From assembly GCA_025457805.1 (NCBI GenBank), contig JALOTR010000020.1:1-11977 (forward strand): a DNA stretch of 11,977 nucleotides. Reading direction: 5' to 3'. The stretch is from Akkermansiaceae bacterium (lineage in GTDB: Bacteria > Verrucomicrobiota > Verrucomicrobiia > Verrucomicrobiales > Akkermansiaceae). The notes under the pieces were generated by a model. It was not told the DNA's origin, made no database searches, and was given only the letters and a program-made list of their open reading frames with translations. Every line of letters begins with the position of its first letter. Position 1 is the first letter of the stretch. Positions 2,315-11,977 of this stretch are shown in pieces. The position numbers and the translations under genes were made by a program.

Positions 2315-3823
2315 ATGATGAAAATCCGGATGCCTCTTCTCGCCTTGTTGTGTTGCCTCGCCACACCTGCGGGCGGCGGGCAACACTCGGAGCTGTGGGG
2401 CGCCGATGGTAAAAACTGGGATCCCGCAGGCCGTTTGCCCGATGTTTCCCATGCCGGTTATGCGTGTGGTGAGAAGCCCATTCCGAAAGTGGCGGTCCGT
2501 GCCAACGTGCGTGATTTAGGCGCGAAGGGCGATGGGGTGACCGATGACTCGGCGGCATTTCTCAAAGCCATTGAAAAGGCCCCCAGCGGTGCAATCCTGA
2601 TCCCGGCGGGGCGATATTGCATCACGAAGATTCTGGAAATCCAGCGGCCGGGTCTTGTGTTGCGCGGCGAGGGCGCAGGCGAAACCATTCTGGTCTGCAA
2701 GGTGCCCCTCAATGATATCGCCCCAAACTGGGGGGAGACGACGAGCGGACTGCGCACATCGAATTACTCATGGTCCGGCGGGATGGTATGGTTCAAAGGT
2801 GGCAACTCCGGCAAACGGATCGGCAAATGCACCACCATGGCGAAGCGCGGTTCACGTGAACTGAAAGTCGAAGGAGACACCTCAATGCTCAAGGCGGGTT
2901 CCTGGATTGAAATCCGCGTGAATGATGATGAGCAGAAAACCCTGCTGGAGCATCTTTATTCGGGCGACCCGGGGAATCTAACAAAAATCAAACCCGGCAA
3001 ACATTCCACCAGCTTTGTGACGCGGCTGCGCTGGGTGGATGGCAAGCGGCTTGCCTTGGAACGACCCTTGCGGATCGATGTCCGCCCGGAGTGGAAGCCG
3101 GTGGTTTCGCACTATCAACCTGAGGTGACTGAAAGCGGAATCGAAGAGTTATCATTTGAGTTTCCGGAACGCGAGTATGGCGGACATTTTTCCGAGCTGG
3201 GATACAATGCCGTGGCCTTCAACGGGGTGGCGCATTGCTGGGCGAGGAATCTGGAGATCATCAATTCGGACAGCGGGATCTTTGCCGGCGGACGATATTG
3301 CACGATCGAGGGGCTGCGTTTCATCACGAGGAATGTGAAGGAAAACAACGGCGAGTTCGGCCATCACGGAGTGACGCTTTCAGGTCATGACAACCTGCTC
3401 ACACGGTTCGATATCCGCCAGCGTTTCATTCATGATATCAGCGTGGAACGTGGGGCGGGAAACGTGGCGTCGTCCGGCAAGGGGATCGACTTGTGTTTCG
3501 ATCACCACAAGCGTGCACCTTATGAGAATGTGTTCACTGACATCGATCTCGGTGAAGGCACACGGATGTGGAAAAGCGGTGGCGGCGCGGACCTGGGAAG
3601 GCACTGTGCTGCACGGGGAACTTTCTGGAACATCCGGGCAAAGAAGAACCAGAAACATCCGGGGAATTTCGGTCCACCTTCGATGAATCTCGTGGCCGTG
3701 CAAACCGAAGAAGAATCCGTCACAGAAGAAGACGGGAAATGGATGGAAGCGATCCCACCGGAAAAAATCGCGCCTGCCAACATCCATGAAGCGCAGATTG
3801 CAAGGCGATTGAAGGCGAAGTGA
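2315..3823 (+). CDS. Secreted right-handed beta-helix protein, pectate-lyase-3-like (putative polysaccharide lyase or hydrolase)
   Basis: A 502-residue protein with a Sec signal peptide (MMKIRMPLLALLCCLATPAG); ATG codons at 2315 and 2318 are equally possible starts. The strongest landmark is VRDLGAKGDGVTDDSAAF (about 65-82), the opening motif of the Pectate_lyase_3/GH28-like beta-helix family. It is followed by IPAGRYCIT and LVLRGEGAGETIL, the first helix rungs. Upstream, WDPAGRLPDVSHAGYACGE is a segment often found ahead of this fold in secreted polysaccharide enzymes. Later rungs (AVAFNGVAHCWARNLEIINS, then FIHDISVERGAG) keep the helix pattern to near the C-terminus. Catalytic residues cannot be assigned from sequence alone, so lyase, hydrolase or non-catalytic binding are all open. 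It probably acts outside the cell or in the periplasm on a polysaccharide. The 59-base gap upstream holds a hairpin. Confidence 0.83.
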   Translation: MMKIRMPLLALLCCLATPAGGGQHSELWGADGKNWDPAGRLPDVSHAGYACGEKPIPKVAVRANVRDLGAKGDGVTDDSAAFLKAIEKAPSGAILIPAGRYCITKILEIQRPGLVLRGEGAGETILVCKVPLNDIAPNWGETTSGLRTSNYSWSGGMVWFKGGNSGKRIGKCTTMAKRGSRELKVEGDTSMLKAGSWIEIRVNDDEQKTLLEHLYSGDPGNLTKIKPGKHSTSFVTRLRWVDGKRLALERPLRIDVRPEWKPVVSHYQPEVTESGIEELSFEFPEREYGGHFSELGYNAVAFNGVAHCWARNLEIINSDSGIFAGGRYCTIEGLRFITRNVKENNGEFGHHGVTLSGHDNLLTRFDIRQRFIHDISVERGAGNVASSGKGIDLCFDHHKRAPYENVFTDIDLGEGTRMWKSGGGADLGRHCAARGTFWNIRAKKNQKHPGNFGPPSMNLVAVQTEEESVTEEDGKWMEAIPPEKIAPANIHEAQIARRLKAK

Positions 3824-3888
3824 TATCCCTTTGTTGTTTCAATCGGGATCACGGCTGGAATCTCCCTTCGTCGGCATTCGCGCGGTGA

Positions 3889-3924
3889 CGCAAAAGTGCA
3901 GGAGATTTCCGTGAAGATTCAATG
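3889..3924 (+). promoter_or_regulatory. Putative XylR/AraC-type operator, copy 1 (direct repeat, 21-base period)
   Basis: This 36-base element is shared with 7269-7304 (29/36 identical) and 9035-9070 (31/36), and the first 15 bases (CGCAAAAGTGCAGGA) are identical in all three. The two half-sites start at 3889 (CGCAAAAGTGCA) and 3910 (CGTGAAGATTCA), 21 bases apart. The downstream half-site here is the most diverged, with 7 of 12 matching. It lies in the 218-base gap after the beta-helix gene and about 118 bases before the pseudopilin start. The arrangement fits two tandem AraC-type helix-turn-helix contacts on one DNA face; binding by the regulator at 6027-7235 is inferred. Confidence 0.65.
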
Positions 3925-3938
3925 ACTTCTGCGGACAT

Positions 3939-3970
3939 CATGCCAATCTGGGGATCGAGCATGTGGCATG
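3939..3970. repeat. 7-bp inverted repeat downstream of operator copy 1
   Basis: CATGCCA (3939-3945) and TGGCATG (3964-3970) form a perfect inverted repeat with an 18-base spacer, just downstream of operator copy 1. It could be a second protein-binding palindrome or a leader hairpin. An inverted repeat with the same TGGCA/TGCCA core occurs after operator copy 3 (9087-9092 with 9109-9114). The function is unknown and chance occurrence is possible. Confidence 0.3.
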
Positions 3971-3985
3971 TTTTCCATTGCCCAT

Positions 3986-4001
3986 TCTCGGAAACCCGAG
4001 A
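3986..4001 (+). other. Short hairpin in the pseudopilin leader
   Basis: TCTCGG and CCGAGA form a perfect 6-bp stem with a 4-base loop (AAAC), 40 bases before the pseudopilin ATG. No T-tract follows. It may be a leader-RNA structure; no known riboswitch or leader class is recognised. Confidence 0.3.
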
Positions 4002-4006
4002 CCACC

Positions 4007-4029
4007 TGCATATGTTCAGGAAAATTCAG
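4007..4029 (+). promoter_or_regulatory. Possible isolated operator half-site before the pseudopilin gene
   Basis: GTTCAGGAAAATTC (4014-4027) matches 13 of 14 bases of the corresponding part of operator copy 3 (GTGCAGGAAAATTC). Over 23 bases about 17 match. The second half-site is absent, with only 2 of 12 bases matching at the expected place. It ends 12 bases before the ATG at 4042. It may be an accessory single site or chance; low confidence. Confidence 0.25.
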
Positions 4030-4041
4030 ATAGATCATCCG

Positions 4042-4740
4042 ATGAAGCGTCGATCACGCATTCACGCGGCGGGCCTTACCTTGACGGAGGTGCTCGTCGT
4101 GATTGTCATCATCGGCGTTCTTGCCGCGATCTTGTTTCCCCTGGCCCAAGGCATGCGGGAACGGGCGCGATCGGCACAATGCGTGCAAAACCTGCGGCAA
4201 ATCGGCATCGGGCTGCAGGGTTATATCCAGGAAAAGAACGGCCGTTTTCCCGATGGTTCTGCCGATGTTTCATGGGTGCCAGGGATCACGACGACGCGAT
4301 GCTGGTATGACGCCGCCGCGGAAAACATGGGGCGCGAGTATGTCCCCTATCACAAGGGCGATCCATTGCCGTCAGCGTTTGGGTGTCCCTCTGGAAATGG
4401 AAAAGCCTATGAACCGGCTTGGCCTTACACTGGCGATTATGCGGCAAACTTCTATCTCGGCCATCCGAACCACGGCGTCACGACGATCTCCGCGGTGAAG
4501 AATCCTTCATCAACCCCATACGTCCAGGACACGGTGAAGCAAAACAACTTCGGCACCGCGATCTACGGTTCCGGGTTTTCGAAAACCGCCAACACCGCCT
4601 TCGCGGATCGGCATCGCGGCAGTGGCAACATCCTGTGGGTGGATGGTCACGTTTCCACATTCACTCATGCCCAATACATGATGATTGCAAACGATCCCAA
4701 GCGCGGAGGTCCATACAACTTCATCAGGGGAAACTGGTAG
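4042..4740 (+). CDS. Type II secretion/prepilin-like protein with H-X9-DG C-terminal motif
   Basis: A 232-residue protein from the ATG at 4042. I preferred this start because it leaves the short basic leader expected of a prepilin (MKRRSRIHAAG). The frame is also open to ATGs at 4012 and 3922, the latter inside operator copy 1. GLTLTEVLVVIVIIGVLAAI (11-30) is the N-terminal methylation and transmembrane motif, with predicted cleavage after Gly11 and the conserved Glu at +5 of the mature chain. The C-terminal DRHRGSGNILWVDGHVSTF contains His191 and Asp201-Gly202 separated by nine residues, the H-X9-DG signature of pseudopilin-like proteins abundant in Planctomycetes, Verrucomicrobia and Lentisphaerae. 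It would sit in the inner membrane with a periplasmic globular domain. Its partners are unknown, and no secretion apparatus is encoded nearby. Operator copy 1 upstream suggests control by the XylR-type regulator. Confidence 0.88.
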   Translation: MKRRSRIHAAGLTLTEVLVVIVIIGVLAAILFPLAQGMRERARSAQCVQNLRQIGIGLQGYIQEKNGRFPDGSADVSWVPGITTTRCWYDAAAENMGREYVPYHKGDPLPSAFGCPSGNGKAYEPAWPYTGDYAANFYLGHPNHGVTTISAVKNPSSTPYVQDTVKQNNFGTAIYGSGFSKTANTAFADRHRGSGNILWVDGHVSTFTHAQYMMIANDPKRGGPYNFIRGNW

Positions 4741-4835
4741 TCAGCAGACAATTCGCGCTGTTTCCCGGGAATCCTTGCCAAGGTCCGTCCGGGTGCCTTG
4801 GATGGGCTGTGGTTTGAATGTTTTGTGCCGATCGA

Positions 4836-6002
4836 ATGCATCCTGCTCCTTCCAAATTGCCCTTGTTTGTGTTTGAAGCCTTGGGCTCCCTGGCCTGCGG
4901 TTTTTATGGGAATTATGTGTTTTTTCTGTTCCGCGATCGGCATGGTTTCGGCAACCTCGGCAATCTCGGCGTGGCCGCCATGATGGGCTTGGTGATCGCA
5001 TTGGCTTCCTGGCAGGCCGGGAAACTTGCGCAGCATCACGGTTGTTTCCGGGCGATGCTTGCGGGTCTTTTGGGGATGATGGTGGCTTTGGGAATCGGTG
5101 CGTGTTTCCCATCATTGCCGGTGCAGTTGGCCGTGCTCGTGGTTTGGGCAGCCTCGCAATTCATGATCTGGCCCGCGCTGGAGGCTCTGGTGACGGAGGG
5201 TGCAAGCGGTGGTGCCCGCGCACGTCTCGTCGGAGTTTACAGTGTGGTGTGGGCAAGCTGTTCGGCGCTATCGTATTTCTTCGGCGGAGGTCTGATCGAG
5301 TGGCTCGGGATCGGCAGCATTTTCTGGCTGCCACCGGGACTGCACTTGCTGCAGCTCGTCGTGTTGTGGAGGTATGCGCGGGGTGATGGTGAGACTCCAA
5401 AAGCGATTCCTGTGACGCACGAGCCCGTTCCGGACCGGCGTGTTGCAAATCCGCAGTCATTCCTGCGGATGGCCTGGCTGGCGAATCCCTTTGCCTGCGT
5501 CGCGGCATTCACCTTGCTGGCCATGATTCCGGAACTCGCACGGAGGATGGGCTTGAGCACGACGATGGCCGGCTTGTTTTGCTCGATCTGGTTTTTCGCG
5601 CGCTTGTTGGCGTTCATCGTGATGTGGCAATGGCCCGGCTGGCATTACCGGTTCCGCTGGCTGTTAGGCGGATACCTTCTGCTGATCGCTGGCTTCGCCA
5701 CGGTGCTCACGGCGGATGGTTTGTTCTGGCTTGGTGTGGGACAAGTGGCGTTCGGGTTGGCGGTGGGGTTGCTGTATTACGCGTCGCTGTTTTACTCGAT
5801 GGATGTGGGTGAGGCGCGCGCCGAGCAAGGAGGCATCCACGAGGCGATGATGGGTGCGGGAAACTTTGTGGGCCCGGGAATCGGTGCCTTGAGCCTGTGG
5901 ATCGCACCGCACTCGGCACATGCCGGAGTTTGGTCGGTGAGCGGCTTGCTCGCGATCGGTTTGGCCGTGTTGGTTCGTAATCGCTTGAAGGGCGCGGCCT
6001 AG
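4836..6002 (+). CDS. Major facilitator superfamily-like transporter
   Basis: A 388-residue, strongly hydrophobic protein with about 12 predicted membrane segments arranged as two halves around a polar loop (RYARGDGETPKAIPVTHEP). This matches the usual MFS length and architecture. The ATG at 4836 starts just before the first membrane segment; an in-frame ATG at 4818 adds six residues, and neither has a clear Shine-Dalgarno sequence. Visible segments include GLVIALASWQAG, MMVALGIGACF and the Gly-rich C-terminal MMGAGNFVGPGIGALSLWIA. The substrate cannot be assigned. It lies 95 bases after the pseudopilin gene and ends 24 bases before the XylR-type regulator gene, so it may import the compound that regulator senses (inference from position). 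Confidence 0.75.
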   Translation: MHPAPSKLPLFVFEALGSLACGFYGNYVFFLFRDRHGFGNLGNLGVAAMMGLVIALASWQAGKLAQHHGCFRAMLAGLLGMMVALGIGACFPSLPVQLAVLVVWAASQFMIWPALEALVTEGASGGARARLVGVYSVVWASCSALSYFFGGGLIEWLGIGSIFWLPPGLHLLQLVVLWRYARGDGETPKAIPVTHEPVPDRRVANPQSFLRMAWLANPFACVAAFTLLAMIPELARRMGLSTTMAGLFCSIWFFARLLAFIVMWQWPGWHYRFRWLLGGYLLLIAGFATVLTADGLFWLGVGQVAFGLAVGLLYYASLFYSMDVGEARAEQGGIHEAMMGAGNFVGPGIGALSLWIAPHSAHAGVWSVSGLLAIGLAVLVRNRLKGAA

Positions 6003-6026
6003 AATGGCAATGCATTCGTTCAACCC

Positions 6027-7235
6027 ATGAAAAAACCCTCCGGAAACAAATCCACCCCACGGGTGGCTTTGCTCATCGAATCGTCGCGCAGCTACGGGCG
6101 TGAGTTGCTGATGGGAATCGCCAAGTATGTGAGGATTCACGGACCCTGGTCTGTCGAATTCGAAGAGGGCGACCCCGGCGAGCATTTTCCCAAATGGTTC
6201 GGCCGTTGGAAATGGGATGGCATCATCGCGCGGGTCTCAACTCCGGACATGGCCAAGGTCATTCGCCGGACCGGAGTGCCGGTGGTGGATTTGAGCGGGA
6301 GTCTGCCCGAATCCCGCTTTCCGCGGATCCGTTCGGATGAAAAGGCTGTGGGCAGGATGGCTGCGGAGCATCTGTTAGAGCGCGGATTCAAGCATTTTGC
6401 ATTCTGCGGGTTCAATGGCACGGATTGGTCTGACTTGCGCCGGGCAAGTTTCGAAGAGCGGATTTCCGAAGCGGGATTCGCTTGTCTGGTGTTTGAAAAT
6501 CCCGGCCCGATGAAATCATTTTCCCTCTCGGACTATGAGGAACACGGCGAACGGCACGAGCGGGATTTGATGCGCTGGTTGCAATCGCTGCCCAAGCCTT
6601 GTGGCCTCATGGCTTGCAACGATTCGCGCGGACGGCAGGTGCTCAATTGCTGCCGCGAAGTGGGTGTGGCCGTGCCGGATGAAGTTGCGGTCATCGGTGT
6701 GGACAAAGATGAAATCTTCTGTGAGTTGTCCGATCTGCCCTTGTCGAGCGTGATCCTCAACACCCAGCAGATCGGGTTTGAAGCCGCTGCATTGTTGGCG
6801 AGGCTGATGGCGGGCGAAAGCGTGGAGTCCGCATCCATCGTGGTCCAACCGATGGGCGTGATGGCCCGCCAATCCACGGATGTGCTTGCGATCGATGACC
6901 GGCACATCGCGACGGCGCTCAAGCACATCCGCGAACATGCGTGCGACGGGCTCGACGTCGAGTCCCTGCTCAGGGCTGTCCCACTTTCCAGGAGTGTGCT
7001 CGAACGGCGCTTTTCACAAATCCTTGGAACTTCACCGAAGGTGGAGATTCTTCGTGTCCGGCTCGACCGGGTATGCCGCCTCCTGGCGGAGTCCGATCTG
7101 TCACTCGCGGAAGTGGCCCACAAAGCTGGCTTCGAACATCCGGAATACATGAGTCGTCTGTTCAAGAAAAAGATGGGGATCACTCCGGGTGAATTCCGGA
7201 AGTTTCCCGGCACCGCACATCTTCCGCTTCGATGA
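6027..7235 (+). CDS. XylR-type transcriptional regulator (periplasmic-binding fold plus AraC helix-turn-helix)
   Basis: A 402-residue cytoplasmic regulator. Residues about 11-285 form a LacI/GalR-like ligand-binding domain: RVALLIESSRSYGRELLMGI (12-31), WDGIIARVSTP, GVPVVDLSGS, then DEKAVGRMAAEHLLERGFKH, ACNDSRGRQVLNCCREVGVAVPDEVAVIGVD in segments at about 196-226, and the SSVILNTQQIGFEAAALLARL region. Residues 291-393 form the AraC/XylS DNA-binding domain with two helix-turn-helices: VESLLRAVPLSRSVLERRF, then LAEVAHKAGFEHPEYMSRLF followed by KKKMGITPGEFRK. This order matches XylR of E. coli and its many verrucomicrobial relatives, which sense sugars and usually activate catabolic genes. Length is normal. 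The ATG at 6027 gives a basic N-terminus. The likely targets are the three tandem-repeat elements at 3889, 7269 and 9035. If 4042-7235 is one operon, it regulates itself. The ligand is unknown. Confidence 0.9.
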   Translation: MKKPSGNKSTPRVALLIESSRSYGRELLMGIAKYVRIHGPWSVEFEEGDPGEHFPKWFGRWKWDGIIARVSTPDMAKVIRRTGVPVVDLSGSLPESRFPRIRSDEKAVGRMAAEHLLERGFKHFAFCGFNGTDWSDLRRASFEERISEAGFACLVFENPGPMKSFSLSDYEEHGERHERDLMRWLQSLPKPCGLMACNDSRGRQVLNCCREVGVAVPDEVAVIGVDKDEIFCELSDLPLSSVILNTQQIGFEAAALLARLMAGESVESASIVVQPMGVMARQSTDVLAIDDRHIATALKHIREHACDGLDVESLLRAVPLSRSVLERRFSQILGTSPKVEILRVRLDRVCRLLAESDLSLAEVAHKAGFEHPEYMSRLFKKKMGITPGEFRKFPGTAHLPLR

Positions 7236-7268
7236 GGGTGTTCCATGCTTCGAACCATTTCCGCCTGC

Positions 7269-7304
7269 CGCAAAAGTGCAGGAAAGATCCGCAAATGTTC
7301 AATG
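7269..7304 (+). promoter_or_regulatory. Putative XylR/AraC-type operator, copy 2 (best-preserved direct repeat)
   Basis: Half-sites CGCAAAAGTGCA (7269) and CGCAAATGTTCA (7290) match at 10 of 12 positions and are exactly 21 bases apart. The whole element matches copy 3 at 33 of 36 positions. It lies in the 116-base gap between the regulator gene and the PhoD-like gene, 47 bases before the latter's ATG. TTCAAT at 7298-7303 is 17 bases from ATGGCA at 7321-7326. Copy 3 shows the same layout, so these could be the -35 and -10 regions of an activator-dependent promoter, although neither resembles the consensus. Confidence 0.7.
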
Positions 7305-7351
7305 TCCTCTCGCACACTGCATGGCAGCCTTTTACAAAACATCCATTCACC

Positions 7352-9028
7352 ATGAAACCCATCCTCCAAATCCTCTCGATGCTTGTGCCAGCGGCCACCA
7401 TTGCATTCGCCCAACCCACCCGCCACGGCGAACCGCCCGTGAAGGCACCATTTCTGAAGGGTGAGGATTCGCTCTGCGTCAACGATTGGTGGAAACGCCC
7501 CGCGGGTGAAATCATTGATCTGAAGGTGCCGCGCGATCAGGTGGTGTGTTTTGGAATTTACACGGTTCACAACCGCATCCTCAAACTCACCGCTCAGCTC
7601 TATCCGCTTTTCCCTGCGGAAACCCGCGAGGTGCGGCTCGAAATTGACAAGGAGGGTGCGTGGACCGAAGTCGCACGGCAAAAGGTCAACGATCTCGGTT
7701 GGTCCACCACCTTCCGCATTGCGGATTGGGATGACTCGAAACATGTCAAATACCGGCTTCTTCATGGCGAGAAGGCATCGTTCGAGGGACTCATCCGGAA
7801 GAATCCCTCGGACAAGGATGAAATCGTAGTCGCTGCCCTCTCGTGCAACTCCAACAAGGACCGCGGCCTGCGCCCGGAATACGTGCGAAACATCAACCAC
7901 CAGGATCCCGACCTTGTGTTCTTTGCTGGCGATCAATCGTATGATCACAAACAACACACGGCTGCCTGGCTCAAGTTCGGCCTCGCATTTCGTGATATCT
8001 TCCGCGAGCGCCCTTGTGTCACGATTCCAGATGATCACGACATCGGCCAAGGCAATCTTTGGGGCGAGGGTGGCAAGATCGCCAAGGCCGAAGCCGGCCA
8101 CGACGGCGGTTATTTCTTTCATCACGAATATGTCAAAATGGTCGAGCGCCAACAATGCGCGCACCTGCCGGATCCATATGATCCTGCACCCGTCGAGCAA
8201 GGCATCGGTGTTTATTACACGCGTCTTCTGTTAGGTGGAATCGATTTTGCCATCATCGAGGACCGCAAGTTCAAGACAGGGCCGCTCGGTCGTCATCCGA
8301 TGAAAGGACCGCGCCCGGACCACGTCCTCGATCCTCAATACGATCCAAAAGTAATCGACACGCCGGGCCTGCAATTGCTCGGCGCACGTCAGGAAAAATT
8401 CCTCGCCGACTGGGCCAAGATGCGCGAGGGCGTGGCCATCAAGGCGGTCCTCTCGCAAACCGGTTTCTGTGGTGGCGCACATCTCCATGGATCGCGCGAC
8501 AACCGCCTCCATGCCGACCTCGATTCCAACGGCTGGCCACAAACCGGCCGCAACAAGGCGCTCGAACTCATCCAGCAAGCCCGCGCCGTCCACATCGCCG
8601 GTGACCAGCACATCGCCACCTTGATCCAGCATGGCATCCGCGATTTCCGCGACGGTCCCTGGGCCTTCGTCGTGCCAGCCATCGTCAACAACTACTATGG
8701 CCGCTGGTGGTGGCCCGAGGATGAAAAACCCGGTGCCCATCCCATCGCCGGATCACCGCTGCCGTGGACTGGCGACTATCTCGATGGTTTCCATAACAAA
8801 ATCACCATGCTGGCCTACGCCAACCCTGAGAACCGCCTCCAGAACATCGCGGGCATCAAACCTGGCGACACCAGCAATGCCGATGCTGACTGGGGGCACG
8901 GTTATGGTTTGATCCGTTTCGTCAAAAAATCAGGTGAGGTCACCTTCGAATGCTGGCCCCGCTTCGCCGATGTGACCAAGCCCGGTGCCCGCCAATTCCC
9001 GGGTTGGCCACAAACAGTGAAACCCTGA
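7352..9028 (+). CDS. Secreted PhoD-like metallophosphatase (alkaline phosphatase D family)
   Basis: A 558-residue protein from the ATG at 7352, chosen because it gives a clean signal peptide (MKPILQILSMLVPAATIAFA, cleavage near Ala20-Gln21). The frame is open further upstream but that stretch runs through operator copy 2. An N-terminal beta domain (about 25-150) precedes the metallophosphatase domain. Metal-binding landmarks are AALSCNSN (161-168), PDLVFFAGDQSYDH (186-199, the GDQ aspartate), TIPDDHDIGQGNLWGEGG (224-241), and HIAGDQHIATLIQHG (414-428) with the late histidines. PhoD-family enzymes are exported Ca/Fe-dependent phosphodiesterases or phosphomonoesterases; whether this divergent member cleaves phosphate esters is inferred. 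It is homologous end to end with the catalytic part of the minus-strand protein at 9863-11977, both closing with a GWPQT/DWPQT motif. Operator copy 2 lies just upstream. Confidence 0.87.
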   Translation: MKPILQILSMLVPAATIAFAQPTRHGEPPVKAPFLKGEDSLCVNDWWKRPAGEIIDLKVPRDQVVCFGIYTVHNRILKLTAQLYPLFPAETREVRLEIDKEGAWTEVARQKVNDLGWSTTFRIADWDDSKHVKYRLLHGEKASFEGLIRKNPSDKDEIVVAALSCNSNKDRGLRPEYVRNINHQDPDLVFFAGDQSYDHKQHTAAWLKFGLAFRDIFRERPCVTIPDDHDIGQGNLWGEGGKIAKAEAGHDGGYFFHHEYVKMVERQQCAHLPDPYDPAPVEQGIGVYYTRLLLGGIDFAIIEDRKFKTGPLGRHPMKGPRPDHVLDPQYDPKVIDTPGLQLLGARQEKFLADWAKMREGVAIKAVLSQTGFCGGAHLHGSRDNRLHADLDSNGWPQTGRNKALELIQQARAVHIAGDQHIATLIQHGIRDFRDGPWAFVVPAIVNNYYGRWWWPEDEKPGAHPIAGSPLPWTGDYLDGFHNKITMLAYANPENRLQNIAGIKPGDTSNADADWGHGYGLIRFVKKSGEVTFECWPRFADVTKPGARQFPGWPQTVKP

Positions 9029-9034
9029 GGTCGC

Positions 9035-9070
9035 CGCAAAAGTGCAGGAAAATTCCGCGAATGTTCAATG
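9035..9070 (+). promoter_or_regulatory. Putative XylR/AraC-type operator, copy 3
   Basis: Half-sites CGCAAAAGTGCA (9035) and CGCGAATGTTCA (9056) match at 9 of 12 positions with a 21-base period. The linker makes a perfect GGAAAATTCC palindrome only in this copy. It begins 7 bases after the PhoD-like stop codon and ends 110 bases before the PEP-CTERM ATG. TTCAAT (9064-9069) lies 17 bases from TTGGCA (9087-9092), the spacing seen after copy 2, so the two leaders share geometry beyond the element itself. Confidence 0.68.
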
Positions 9071-9086
9071 ACGGATTGGCCGCAAC

Positions 9087-9114
9087 TTGGCATTTTCATT
9101 TCGGATTTTGCCAA
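9087..9114. repeat. 6-bp inverted repeat in the PEP-CTERM gene leader
   Basis: TTGGCA (9087-9092) and TGCCAA (9109-9114) are separated by a T-rich 16-base spacer. The left arm occupies the position that would be the -10 region if operator copy 3 abuts a promoter. It may be a protein site, a weak hairpin or chance. A comparable TGCCA/TGGCA pair follows operator copy 1. Confidence 0.3.
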
Positions 9115-9180
9115 CCCTTCTGCCGCCGAACCATTGCGGGTTCATATCAGGGCATTTGGAGCAACCATTAAAAACCCGTC

Positions 9181-9861
9181 ATGAAATCAATCATCACTTC
9201 GTTCTTTGTTGCCTCGGCATCCGTAGCGACGCTGCCTGCAGCGATCACCATCACGGTAGCGAACAATGTCCCCAATGGAACGGTTTCCGGTGGATCCGGA
9301 ACGGGTGCAGGCTCGATCAGCACAAGCTCCGGCACCATGAGTTCCAACCTTGGCCTGCCTGTCACGACCTATACTGTAAGTGGTGTGAATCTGACATCAG
9401 AAGGCGGAACCGCCAGCGAATCATTCACCTTCACCATCAGCTACACAGCGACCACGAATGGAGTCACAGCTGGCACTCCGGTATTCAGCAGCTTCGGAAA
9501 TGTCGGAGTCGGAACGGGTGGGATTGTCAGCGGCGCGGAAACGCTCACGGCCACCATCTCATTGACTTCTACAAGCTTCGCAGGGCTCTCGCTGACGGGC
9601 TTCACGAAGGCAAGAGCCGGTGGATTCACATCTGGTGAAACAGGCACATTCACCTGGCAATCAGGCGGAACGGATACAGTTGAATTTGGCAGTACCATTT
9701 CGAATGTCTCGGGCAATTCGGTCACACTCACCGCCATCGGCGCTTCCACGCTCAACTTCGAGGGATTCGAGGCGCAATTTTCCGCAGTTCCCGAACCGGC
9801 GGCCACCACTCTGTTAGGCATGGGGACGCTCGCACTGCTGCGTCGCAGGAGAACGGCCTGA
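9181..9861 (+). CDS. PEP-CTERM sorting-domain protein
   Basis: A 226-residue exported protein. The N-terminus MKSIITSFFVASASVATLPA is a signal peptide. The body (about 21-200) is rich in Ser, Thr and Gly, contains no Cys, and is predicted all-beta. The C-terminus VPEPAATTLLGMGTLALL followed by RRRRTA (203-226) is a complete PEP-CTERM tripartite signal: the PEP motif, a membrane segment and an arginine cluster. Exosortases cleave such tails and pass the protein to the surface or extracellular matrix; no exosortase is encoded in the window. The body matches no domain I recognise. Operator copy 3 upstream suggests co-regulation with the PhoD-like and pseudopilin genes. The stop codon is one base from the stop of the convergent minus-strand gene. 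Confidence 0.88.
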   Translation: MKSIITSFFVASASVATLPAAITITVANNVPNGTVSGGSGTGAGSISTSSGTMSSNLGLPVTTYTVSGVNLTSEGGTASESFTFTISYTATTNGVTAGTPVFSSFGNVGVGTGGIVSGAETLTATISLTSTSFAGLSLTGFTKARAGGFTSGETGTFTWQSGGTDTVEFGSTISNVSGNSVTLTAIGASTLNFEGFEAQFSAVPEPAATTLLGMGTLALLRRRRTA

Positions 9862-9862
9862 G

Positions 9863-11977
9863 TTAGGGAAGATCCCAGCGTGCCCGATAAAAGCGTTTGC
9901 CTTCCGGTGATGACACGGTGTCGGTGAGGCGGATCGATACCCGGCTGGTGCCGCTGGAAGGGAAGTTCTCCCTGCCTGTTTCGACATAACTGTTTGCCGG
10001 CACTTCCTGCCAGACATCCATGTTCGCGGATGTTTCAACAATCATTCTGGATGCGGCGGAATCGACCGGAAACGAGGTATCGAAATCCACCGTAAGCGTC
10101 GATCCATCCAGTGTCACACTGCCTTGGAGCTTGGGCTTCGACGAGCTATCGCGTGGATCGGTTTGAAATTGGAATTCCTCATCATTCGTGAAGCCATCGC
10201 CATCGGGGTCCGCGCCGCCACCGGAGATTGCCGGATTGTTCAACTCGGGGGCGGAAAAATAGGAGGCATTCCATTCGGCACGGCCGGGGAAAACGCGGAC
10301 AGTCGTCTGCGCAGTGATGGTGCCGTTGAGGGTGAGCGTGTAAGTGGTATCGGCCACCGGTGATACTTCGAGGTAGCCGATTCCATCCACCGTCCGGCTC
10401 AGAACATTGCCCGCGCCTTGGTCGATCACGAGTGTCGTCGGTGAGCTGACGTCCCACTCCAGGGTTGCCACTCCTCCCTCAACAATCGAGGGCTGCACTG
10501 CTCCGAAAAGGCGGATCGCAGCAGGTCCAGCGACGGCAGCGGTCTGACCTGTTAGAGTTTCCGAAACGCTGGCATCACCATAGGCAATCTCGACCCGATA
10601 GGTGGCGGCGTTGTCATAAACCGGCGGACGATAACGGCTGCCTCGGATGCGCATGGCATGGACCAGTTCACCGGTCGTTTCCTGATAGATACGCACCACC
10701 GGATTGTCACGCCAGTGGGTATCGATCACCGGAAGATAACCCGTCGCCACCCGCCCATCGTTGTCGGTCTGGCGAATCGTTTGCGGCCAATCCGAGAACT
10801 GTGCGCCGGTCTGCGGGTATTCCGGATCGGCATGGATCGGCCAAGCTTCGAAGGTAATTTCACGGGTCTTGCGCTGAACCCGAGTAATGCCATAACCTGC
10901 CCCTCGGTCGTGATAGTTTGGTGGATTGACCCCGGTGGTTTGTTGATAGTATTCCGGAGAATTGGCCGAACCGAGAATCGCGAAATGATGGGGATCGTTT
11001 GATACAAGATTGGGAGTCACACCATCCGGCAGCGTGCCCACGCCGTTGAAGAAGTAGTCTCCCTTGTATGGACTGATGGTTGGCGTGGTGCCATCCGCAT
11101 TGTGAACCGGATCGAAGATGCGCGGGAAGAAATTTGCCATCGCCGGAGCGGTGAATGAAATGCCGGCATCGCGCGGAGCATCTGCCCCATGGTGGGCGAG
11201 TGTGCCGAGGTGCTGATCGCCGGACAATTGGAACATGCGGCTCGTGCGGATAAGTCGCCACGCCTCGTTGCGGCGATGCGTCGGCCAGCCATGGGCGTCC
11301 CGGTCGGTCATGCGGAAGATATATCCCGTGTTGGCGTGAGTGTTCAGGATTGCCAATGGGGATTGGGAAGCGACGAGTTTGATGTCCTGCCCGGCCCAGT
11401 CCTTGTTCCACTGCCGCAGGAACTCATGCTGGCGCTCGCCCAGCAGATGCTGTTCTTCAAGAGTCCCGGGCGAGCTCGGACCAGTCTTGAACTTGCGGTC
11501 TTCGAGGATGGCGACGCCGAGTCGCCCATAGGTCATGCCGGTAAAATAGACGCCGATTCCCTGCGCGATTGTGGGTGGTGGTTGGACGGAGTTATAGGGA
11601 TCCGGATCCGGCAGGTTCGAGGTGTGTGCCCGTTCGGACATGCGCACCCACTCGGGCGGTTCGATGTAGCCACCGGTGCCTTCACTGGTCGTCGCGATGC
11701 CGCCCTCGCCCCAAAGATTTCCCTGGAAGATATCATGATCATCCGGGATGGCGACCGTCGGAATATCCCGCGAAAGATCCCGGGCTTGCATGACCCACAG
11801 ATACCACTTGTAGAGGAAATCGAGTTGGCGGTTGATATCACTCGACGTGTCTTTGTTGGTCGGCTGCGGTTCGTAGAGTTGATCGCCAAGGGCCAGCAGG
11901 ACATCGGGTTGGTGCTTCGCGATGTGGGCGAAGGATTGCGGGTGCGGATGCCACATCATCACCGGCGACCAATCGAA
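9863..11977 (-). CDS. Large PhoD-like metallophosphatase with C-terminal Ig-like and TSP3-like calcium-binding region, 5' truncated
   Basis: The frame is open to the right edge, so the N-terminus (signal peptide and first metal ligand) lies outside; 704 residues are visible. Numbering from the GTG at 11962: PDVLLALGDQLYE (19-31) and AIPDDHDIFQGNLWGEGG (71-88) are metal-site motifs; AILEDRKFKTGP (151-162) and QLSGDQHLGTLAHHG (245-259) complete the PhoD-like domain. These align closely with the protein at 7352-9028. After the shared end (SDWPQT, about 390-395) it carries about 300 extra residues: a beta domain (about 400-475), an Ig-like domain (about 478-557), an acidic TSP3-like repeat DPDGDGFTNDEEFQFQTDP (585-603) likely to bind Ca2+, and a C-terminal beta module ending RFYRARWDLP. 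This terminal module is frequent in verrucomicrobial secreted proteins. There is no PEP-CTERM tail, so anchoring would differ from its neighbour. Its promoter lies outside the window. Confidence 0.85.
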   Translation of the reverse strand, partial: FDWSPVMMWHPHPQSFAHIAKHQPDVLLALGDQLYEPQPTNKDTSSDINRQLDFLYKWYLWVMQARDLSRDIPTVAIPDDHDIFQGNLWGEGGIATTSEGTGGYIEPPEWVRMSERAHTSNLPDPDPYNSVQPPPTIAQGIGVYFTGMTYGRLGVAILEDRKFKTGPSSPGTLEEQHLLGERQHEFLRQWNKDWAGQDIKLVASQSPLAILNTHANTGYIFRMTDRDAHGWPTHRRNEAWRLIRTSRMFQLSGDQHLGTLAHHGADAPRDAGISFTAPAMANFFPRIFDPVHNADGTTPTISPYKGDYFFNGVGTLPDGVTPNLVSNDPHHFAILGSANSPEYYQQTTGVNPPNYHDRGAGYGITRVQRKTREITFEAWPIHADPEYPQTGAQFSDWPQTIRQTDNDGRVATGYLPVIDTHWRDNPVVRIYQETTGELVHAMRIRGSRYRPPVYDNAATYRVEIAYGDASVSETLTGQTAAVAGPAAIRLFGAVQPSIVEGGVATLEWDVSSPTTLVIDQGAGNVLSRTVDGIGYLEVSPVADTTYTLTLNGTITAQTTVRVFPGRAEWNASYFSAPELNNPAISGGGADPDGDGFTNDEEFQFQTDPRDSSSKPKLQGSVTLDGSTLTVDFDTSFPVDSAASRMIVETSANMDVWQEVPANSYVETGRENFPSSGTSRVSIRLTDTVSSPEGKRFYRARWDLP

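Follow-up and report, generated by a model that had tools for sequence, protein, structure and literature searches.

The window analysed here, a stretch of 11,977 nucleotides, encodes in order an efflux/secretion-like protein (so labelled by eye, Pfam giving no match for it), a weakly cyclase-like protein and a pectate-lyase-like protein, followed by the first copy of a 36-base element, a pseudopilin, an MFS transporter and a regulator. Beyond the regulator lie the second copy of the element, a PhoD-like gene, the third copy, a PEP-CTERM gene and, in the opposite orientation, the C-terminal part of a second PhoD-like gene. Labels beginning with G (genomes) and L (loci) are those of this analysis, G000 being the window's own genome. 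The genes surrounding the element are the following:

4042 to 4740, + strand: DUF1559 / prepilin-type pseudopilin, predicted target; its orthologue in G098 also has a site
4836 to 6002, + strand: MFS transporter, adjoining the regulator in 6 of the 8 mapped regulator loci
6027 to 7235, + strand: XylR-type regulator with a PBP1_XylR and Peripla_BP_3 sensor and an AraC-type HTH_18 domain, proposed to bind the operator
7352 to 9028, + strand: PhoD-like protein, predicted target
9181 to 9861, + strand: PEP-CTERM protein, predicted target; its orthologue in G098 also has a site
9863 to 11977, - strand: second PhoD-like protein, C-terminal part, running past the window end

The regulator scored above the cut-offs for PBP1_XylR, Peripla_BP_3, HTH_18 and HTH_AraC, and has the arrangement of XylR-type proteins, with an N-terminal XylR/periplasmic-binding-like sensor and a C-terminal AraC helix-turn-helix. 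Residues 11-392 of its 402 align to residues 26-405 of E. coli XylR (4fe7; E = 2.4e-56), an alignment that runs across both domains. Orthologues with 80-81% identity were found in the genus genomes G098 and G148. In G000 itself, there were 15 matches to the XylR-like protein at E <= 1e-3, the window's own included, among them several paralogues.

The three copies of the element lie on the + strand at 3889-3924, 7269-7304 and 9035-9070 and align without gaps, with pairwise identities of 29/36, 31/36 and 33/36 and the same first 15 bases, CGCAAAAGTGCAGGA, in all three. These coordinates and counts exactly reproduce those of the first-pass annotation, which had described the element. The conserved unit proved to be one base longer, 37 bases, giving three predicted operators:

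3888 to 3924, + strand: predicted operator 1, half-sites 3888-3903 and 3909-3924, preceding the pseudopilin gene
7268 to 7304, + strand: predicted operator 2, half-sites 7268-7283 and 7289-7304, preceding the PhoD-like gene
9034 to 9070, + strand: predicted operator 3, half-sites 9034-9049 and 9055-9070, preceding the PEP-CTERM gene

Such similarity is not found in shuffled sequence. The top 36-base pair had 33 matches in the window and 24-27 in 20 first-order Markov shuffles, and a 15-mer occurring three times was present in the window and in 0 of 500 shuffles. Sequence flanking the copies was just 25-32% identical between them, so that the copies are not parts of duplicated genes, in agreement with the earlier claim. 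It had also been claimed that the copies are intergenic and precede genes for exported or membrane proteins. Their intergenic placement holds when 4042, 7352 and 9181 are taken as the gene starts; open frames reaching further upstream, from 3922 and 7232, overlap copies 1 and 2 and are extensions of the same frames. Export is read from family matches (pseudopilin, PEP-CTERM) and from N-termini judged by eye.

The element itself repeats directly in tandem with a period of 21 bases, being made of two head-to-tail half-sites with a consensus of approximately CGCAAAAGTTCA. Over 15 sites from six genomes, identity at offset 21 reached 0.652 versus 0.14-0.39 at the remaining offsets from 5 to 29, corresponding to the pair of direct repeats, spaced by about two turns of the helix, that characterizes XylR/AraC-type operators. 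The two half-sites of these 15 sites matched on average at 10.8 of 16 positions, a value equalled by none of 20000 column permutations. The best repeat was found in G148 (site 14257, 14/16), and the window copies are imperfect repeats (7, 11 and 10 of 16). A blind search of 6 clade loci for dispersed 36-mers with internal repeats recovered solely this element, yielding 7 pairs at offset 21 and none at the other six offsets from 17 to 23.

In total, 22 sites, whose shared descent makes their counts overstate independence, were found in nine genomes or contig sets. Fifteen of them belong to six genomes: four in the window's own genome (59% complete), four each in G098 and G148, and one each in G188, G207 and G208. 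Further regulator orthologue loci contributed two (L097), three (L098) and two sites (L099, Haloferula rosea KCTC 22201), whereas L095, L096 and L100 repeat G148, G188 and G207 and were counted once. The fourth site of the own genome lies on another contig, C75 (G000:C75:8764-8800, - strand).

These sites were detected with matrices, since those of the relatives are diverged forms; indeed, the exact patterns of the window copies had no match in 144 other family genomes. The matrix built from the three window copies found three sites in G098 and two in G148 beside the regulator orthologues, at 33-40 bits, with the next matches below 3 bits. A sequence-only model built from eight sites, together with later scans, brought the number to 15; one scan scored 150 of the 595-759 first-look candidates in each genome, and another, under stricter filters, 93 per genome. 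In a held-out test, the matrix from the three window copies only gave 31.4-44.5 bits to all 19 other sites, and its best score across 1.16 Mb, the 67 loci of less closely related regulators, was 21.5 bits. As a separate check, seven whole genomes (7 of the 73 genus genomes) were searched with a degenerate pattern allowing 2 mismatches at most; the 15 matches were exactly the 15 sites already found, and the reversed control gave none. The pattern having been derived from known sites, the informative result is that no extra and no control matches appeared.

The sites cluster near regulator orthologues and ahead of genes in these scans of the own and related genomes, as would be expected of the local regulon proposed in the first-pass annotation, and no random dispersal was seen. 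In G098, assembled as a single contig of 4.39 Mb, the four sites fall within 13 kb (3935480-3948517), with the regulator among them (3935593-3936786). For 21 of the 22 sites a start codon follows at a distance of 26-169 bases, counting in four cases (window 3888 and 7268, L040 14257, L099 6405) an internal methionine chosen over a longest-frame start that overlaps the site. Conservation beside the same genes was also observed. The G098 orthologues of the pseudopilin (65% identical) and of the PEP-CTERM protein (58%) are each directly behind a site, and in Haloferula rosea the orthologue of a 474-aa protein of C75 (54% over 359 residues) likewise stands behind a site. A MITE-like mobile or dispersed repeat, or a chance family, might be suspected from several near-identical copies on the same strand of one window, but the lack of any copy beyond the locus in the 7 genomes searched, the regular placement before start codons and the retention beside orthologous genes in relatives leave this explanation with a negligible probability.

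The Haloferula rosea site is placed as in C75, between the orthologue of the 474-aa gene and a divergent second PhoD-like gene; the G098 counterpart of the C75 site faces the PhoD-like gene instead. Contig C75 ends inside the N-terminal part of the second PhoD-like gene (G000:C75:8854-11054), which lies 54 bases from the fourth operator, and the window ends inside the C-terminal part. In G098, L039 from 18252 (open to the locus end) corresponds to the N part and L062, 209-3559, to the C part, and by their coordinates they match overlapping stretches of one reading frame. In Haloferula rosea a 1452-codon frame matches the N part, which is the best match listed for it. Judging from these sequences, the window contig and C75 very probably adjoin, which would place the four sites of the own genome within a single region of about 23 kb. 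The window's three longest inverted repeats sit in both PhoD-like genes (8018-8284 and 11477-11755, on opposite strands) and probably merely mirror the homology of these two genes.

The presence of the site was found to follow that of the regulator. Among the 73 genus genomes, a strong site occurred in 5 of the 5 with a full regulator orthologue (at least 70% identity) versus 1 of the remaining 68, namely G208. Similarly, in 51 named-record loci, the 6 with at least 70% regulator identity scored 42-62 bits, and none of the other 45, whose regulators are at most 54% identical, exceeded 12.5 bits. Weak matches in G117 and G127 (E about 5e-4) were left out of the strong sites, looking by eye like one coding frame in both, possibly MazG. 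G180 (95% complete) carries a 155-residue regulator fragment (77%) at the edge of a 3.4-kb contig and no site.

The tandem architecture, the promoter-like spacing described below, the confinement to the locus and the co-occurrence with the regulator are seen in the sequence, and the element is most plausibly the operator of the XylR-type regulator encoded at 6027-7235, to which we assign a probability of roughly 0.85. The 21-base repeat, the XylR-like character of the regulator and the fixed distance to a -10-like element go beyond the shared regulatory input of the earlier proposal, which our data support. A different assignment, in which another regulator encoded elsewhere binds the element and the gene at 6027-7235 is merely co-located, would agree with the G208 site, which has no detected regulator orthologue (best XylR-like match 31%; genome 66% complete). 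Nevertheless, strong sites track full orthologues across the genus, three more orthologue loci carry the site, the 45 loci with less similar regulators stay at low scores, and a direct repeat suits an AraC-type DNA-binding domain (PMC9723621); we therefore consider binding by another regulator very unlikely.

Behind the G208 site, only frames of 133 and 73 codons, spurious-looking by eye, start within 900 bases. The site is preceded by a 446-codon frame (L070:6482-7822) that reads by eye as an ATPase (GARQTGKT). In both G208 and G207 (L071, site 10097), an antisense frame of 163 codons, nearly the same in the two, is found some 0.6 kb ahead of the site. A neighbour common to these two genomes might explain the lone G208 site.

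Aligning the 22 sites revealed a weak, degenerate extended -10-like element (TGnnAnnnT) at a constant distance behind them. In 14 of the 22, the sequence behind the site has A at position 22 and T at position 26, against an average of 1.2 sites (sd 1.8) for the 119 offsets; the runner-up, 10/22 at offset 1, lies within the conserved bases that end the site. At the -10 register the mean match to TGnTATAAT was 3.95/8 versus 1.95 overall. An ATGACT-like hexamer, 17 bases upstream of the -10-like element and overlapping the end of the proximal half-site, is a weak -35-like candidate. The -35 is the less certain part of the promoter assignment, as the best match to TTGACA is not unique but ties between site position 19, in the spacer, and position 35 (both mean 3.95/6). 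The core promoters predicted in the window from this alignment, all weak, are:

3922 to 3950, + strand: predicted core promoter 1, -35-like ATGACT at 3922-3927 and, around 3945, a -10-like element that reads best as TGC CAATCT one base upstream of the common register
7302 to 7330, + strand: predicted core promoter 2, -35-like hexamer at 7302-7307, TGG followed by CAGCCT at 7325-7330
9068 to 9096, + strand: predicted core promoter 3, -35-like hexamer at 9068-9073, TGG followed by CATTTT at 9091-9096

A scan of 3800-9200 for sigma-70 consensus promoters found none, against a mean of 2.0 in shuffles. Some of this conservation reflects common descent; the sequences downstream of L098 sites 11975 and 13992 are near-copies of each other. 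The position of the element in 5' gaps and on the coding strand would also fit a transcribed leader RNA, but the conserved -10-like element follows the site, so that transcription is expected to start behind it, Rfam gave no match for the element at gathering threshold, and the conserved pattern is a direct repeat. An RNA element is accordingly a highly improbable reading.

The geometry of a site beside a promoter has parallels in known systems. In class II activator sites of the AraC family (araI1-I2 type), two half-sites follow each other in tandem at a spacing of about 21 bases, and the one nearer the promoter touches the -35. The sites described here have halves with a 21-base spacing, and the proximal half would abut the candidate -35-like hexamer, which is weak and not unique; the sensor of the regulator is XylR/LacI-like and not the sensor domain of AraC. 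In E. coli, according to PMC6375646, XylR apparently acts as an activator at xylE, with two adjacent sites, one of them beside the RNA polymerase site; the domain order and this paired arrangement resemble those of our system. The targets differ, since no xylose-catabolism enzyme was found among the proteins scanned here. Indeed, xylose isomerase and kinase families had no match in the 9 window proteins, in 4 of the 6 main C75 proteins or in the scanned first genes behind the 4 sites of G098, so that the control of xylose uptake and catabolism genes that defines a xylose (XylR) regulon was not seen in this set. Another parallel is Vibrio XylRA, an XylR homologue reported in PMC12125979 to activate the xul polysaccharide locus, with binding tested by EMSA and several predicted sites of two direct repeats before the xul genes. 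Both systems pair an XylR homologue at a polysaccharide locus, a probable one here, with multiple direct-repeat sites before genes. The differences are that the Vibrio motif is described as AT-rich, its effector is xylose and its locus serves beta-1,3-xylan. An XylR-type regulator with a tandem operator is of a known kind.

If the regulator binds these sites, activation is probably the outcome, because of the tandem geometry beside a weak -35 and of the activation reported for XylR homologues. Binding with the opposite effect, in which the regulator on its tandem site obstructs RNA polymerase and a sugar relieves the block, would agree with the LacI-like sensor half and with a site that touches the -35 region, a position also compatible with occlusion. 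However, the poor -35 and -10 are what promoters dependent on an activator would be expected to have, the predicted transcription start is downstream of the site, and relatives of the same architecture activate, according to the accounts of Vibrio XylRA (PMC12125979) and of E. coli XylR at xylE (PMC6375646, apparently an activator). Repression is consequently the unlikely variant of the operator reading.

Under the operator reading with activation, we infer from the sequence a regulator that binds the tandem site, an inducer, and activation, which could be combined as follows. Half-sites 21 bases apart can let the two DNA-binding domains of a dimer share one helix face, and the regulator dimer would place its domains in this way. 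The sensor domain would take up a sugar freed from a polysaccharide, probably sulfated and perhaps galactose-containing, whereupon the DNA-binding domains would fill the tandem site beside RNA polymerase and otherwise weak promoters would fire. In this manner, the pseudopilin, PEP-CTERM and PhoD-like surface proteins would be produced together with the enzymes and the transporter of the locus.

The gene content near the sites is suggestive of such a substrate. Sulfatases are encoded on C75, and GLAA-B beta-helix proteins occur in the relatives, with a homologue on C75. The MFS transporter is found beside the regulator in the window, G098, G148, G188, G207 and Haloferula rosea, and was not seen there in L097 and L098. 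Together, these genes make the neighbourhood look like a glycan-utilisation locus, and its content suggests a sulfated polysaccharide. GLAA-B domains belong to alpha-1,3-galactosidases (GH110), and the substrate may be a galactan. The earlier picture of a regulon of exported proteins stands in so far as surface-protein genes lie behind the sites, but it was incomplete, omitting the sulfatases, the GLAA-B beta-helix proteins and the MFS transporter.

Two proteins within the locus in relatives (L039:14004-17432 and L040:18894-20000) show, over roughly their first 60 residues, a likeness to Verru_Chthon cassette protein A that scores far under the NCBIfam cut-off; the G148 protein directly follows a site.

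To our knowledge, the roles of pseudopilin, PEP-CTERM and Verru_Chthon-type surface proteins are unclear, and the sites link them to a specific polysaccharide locus. We tentatively suggest, as a possibility with less than even odds, that a sugar-sensing XylR-type activator induces verrucomicrobial surface proteins of obscure function (DUF1559 pseudopilin, PEP-CTERM, Verru_Chthon_A-like, PATR/autotransporter-like and PhoD-like) in step with a sulfated-polysaccharide locus. If so, these abundant proteins would be an inducible machinery for glycan capture or surface digestion, dedicated to one substrate. Keyword searches of the open PubMed Central literature found neither the motif, the regulon or a link to pseudopilin/PEP-CTERM genes, nor any operator described for XylR-like regulators from Verrucomicrobia or Planctomycetes. 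A defined site, its regulator and a promoter geometry make this a directly testable regulon, for instance in Haloferula rosea KCTC 22201.

More distant XylR-like regulators did not show the same arrangement. In 64 of their loci there was no comparable multi-copy element (8 pairs at offset 21, 6 at 18), a count of tandem repeats in 22 loci gave no clear excess (14 clusters at 21, 11 at 18), and 25 loci had no dispersed element with a 21-base period. Distant operators may be single-copy or too diverged, or the tandem layout may be particular to this clade. Beside a planctomycete regulator with 49% identity, L101:2485-2521 (- strand) contains AAAACCTCA twice, 21 bases apart, a weak repeat that is possibly a diverged operator.
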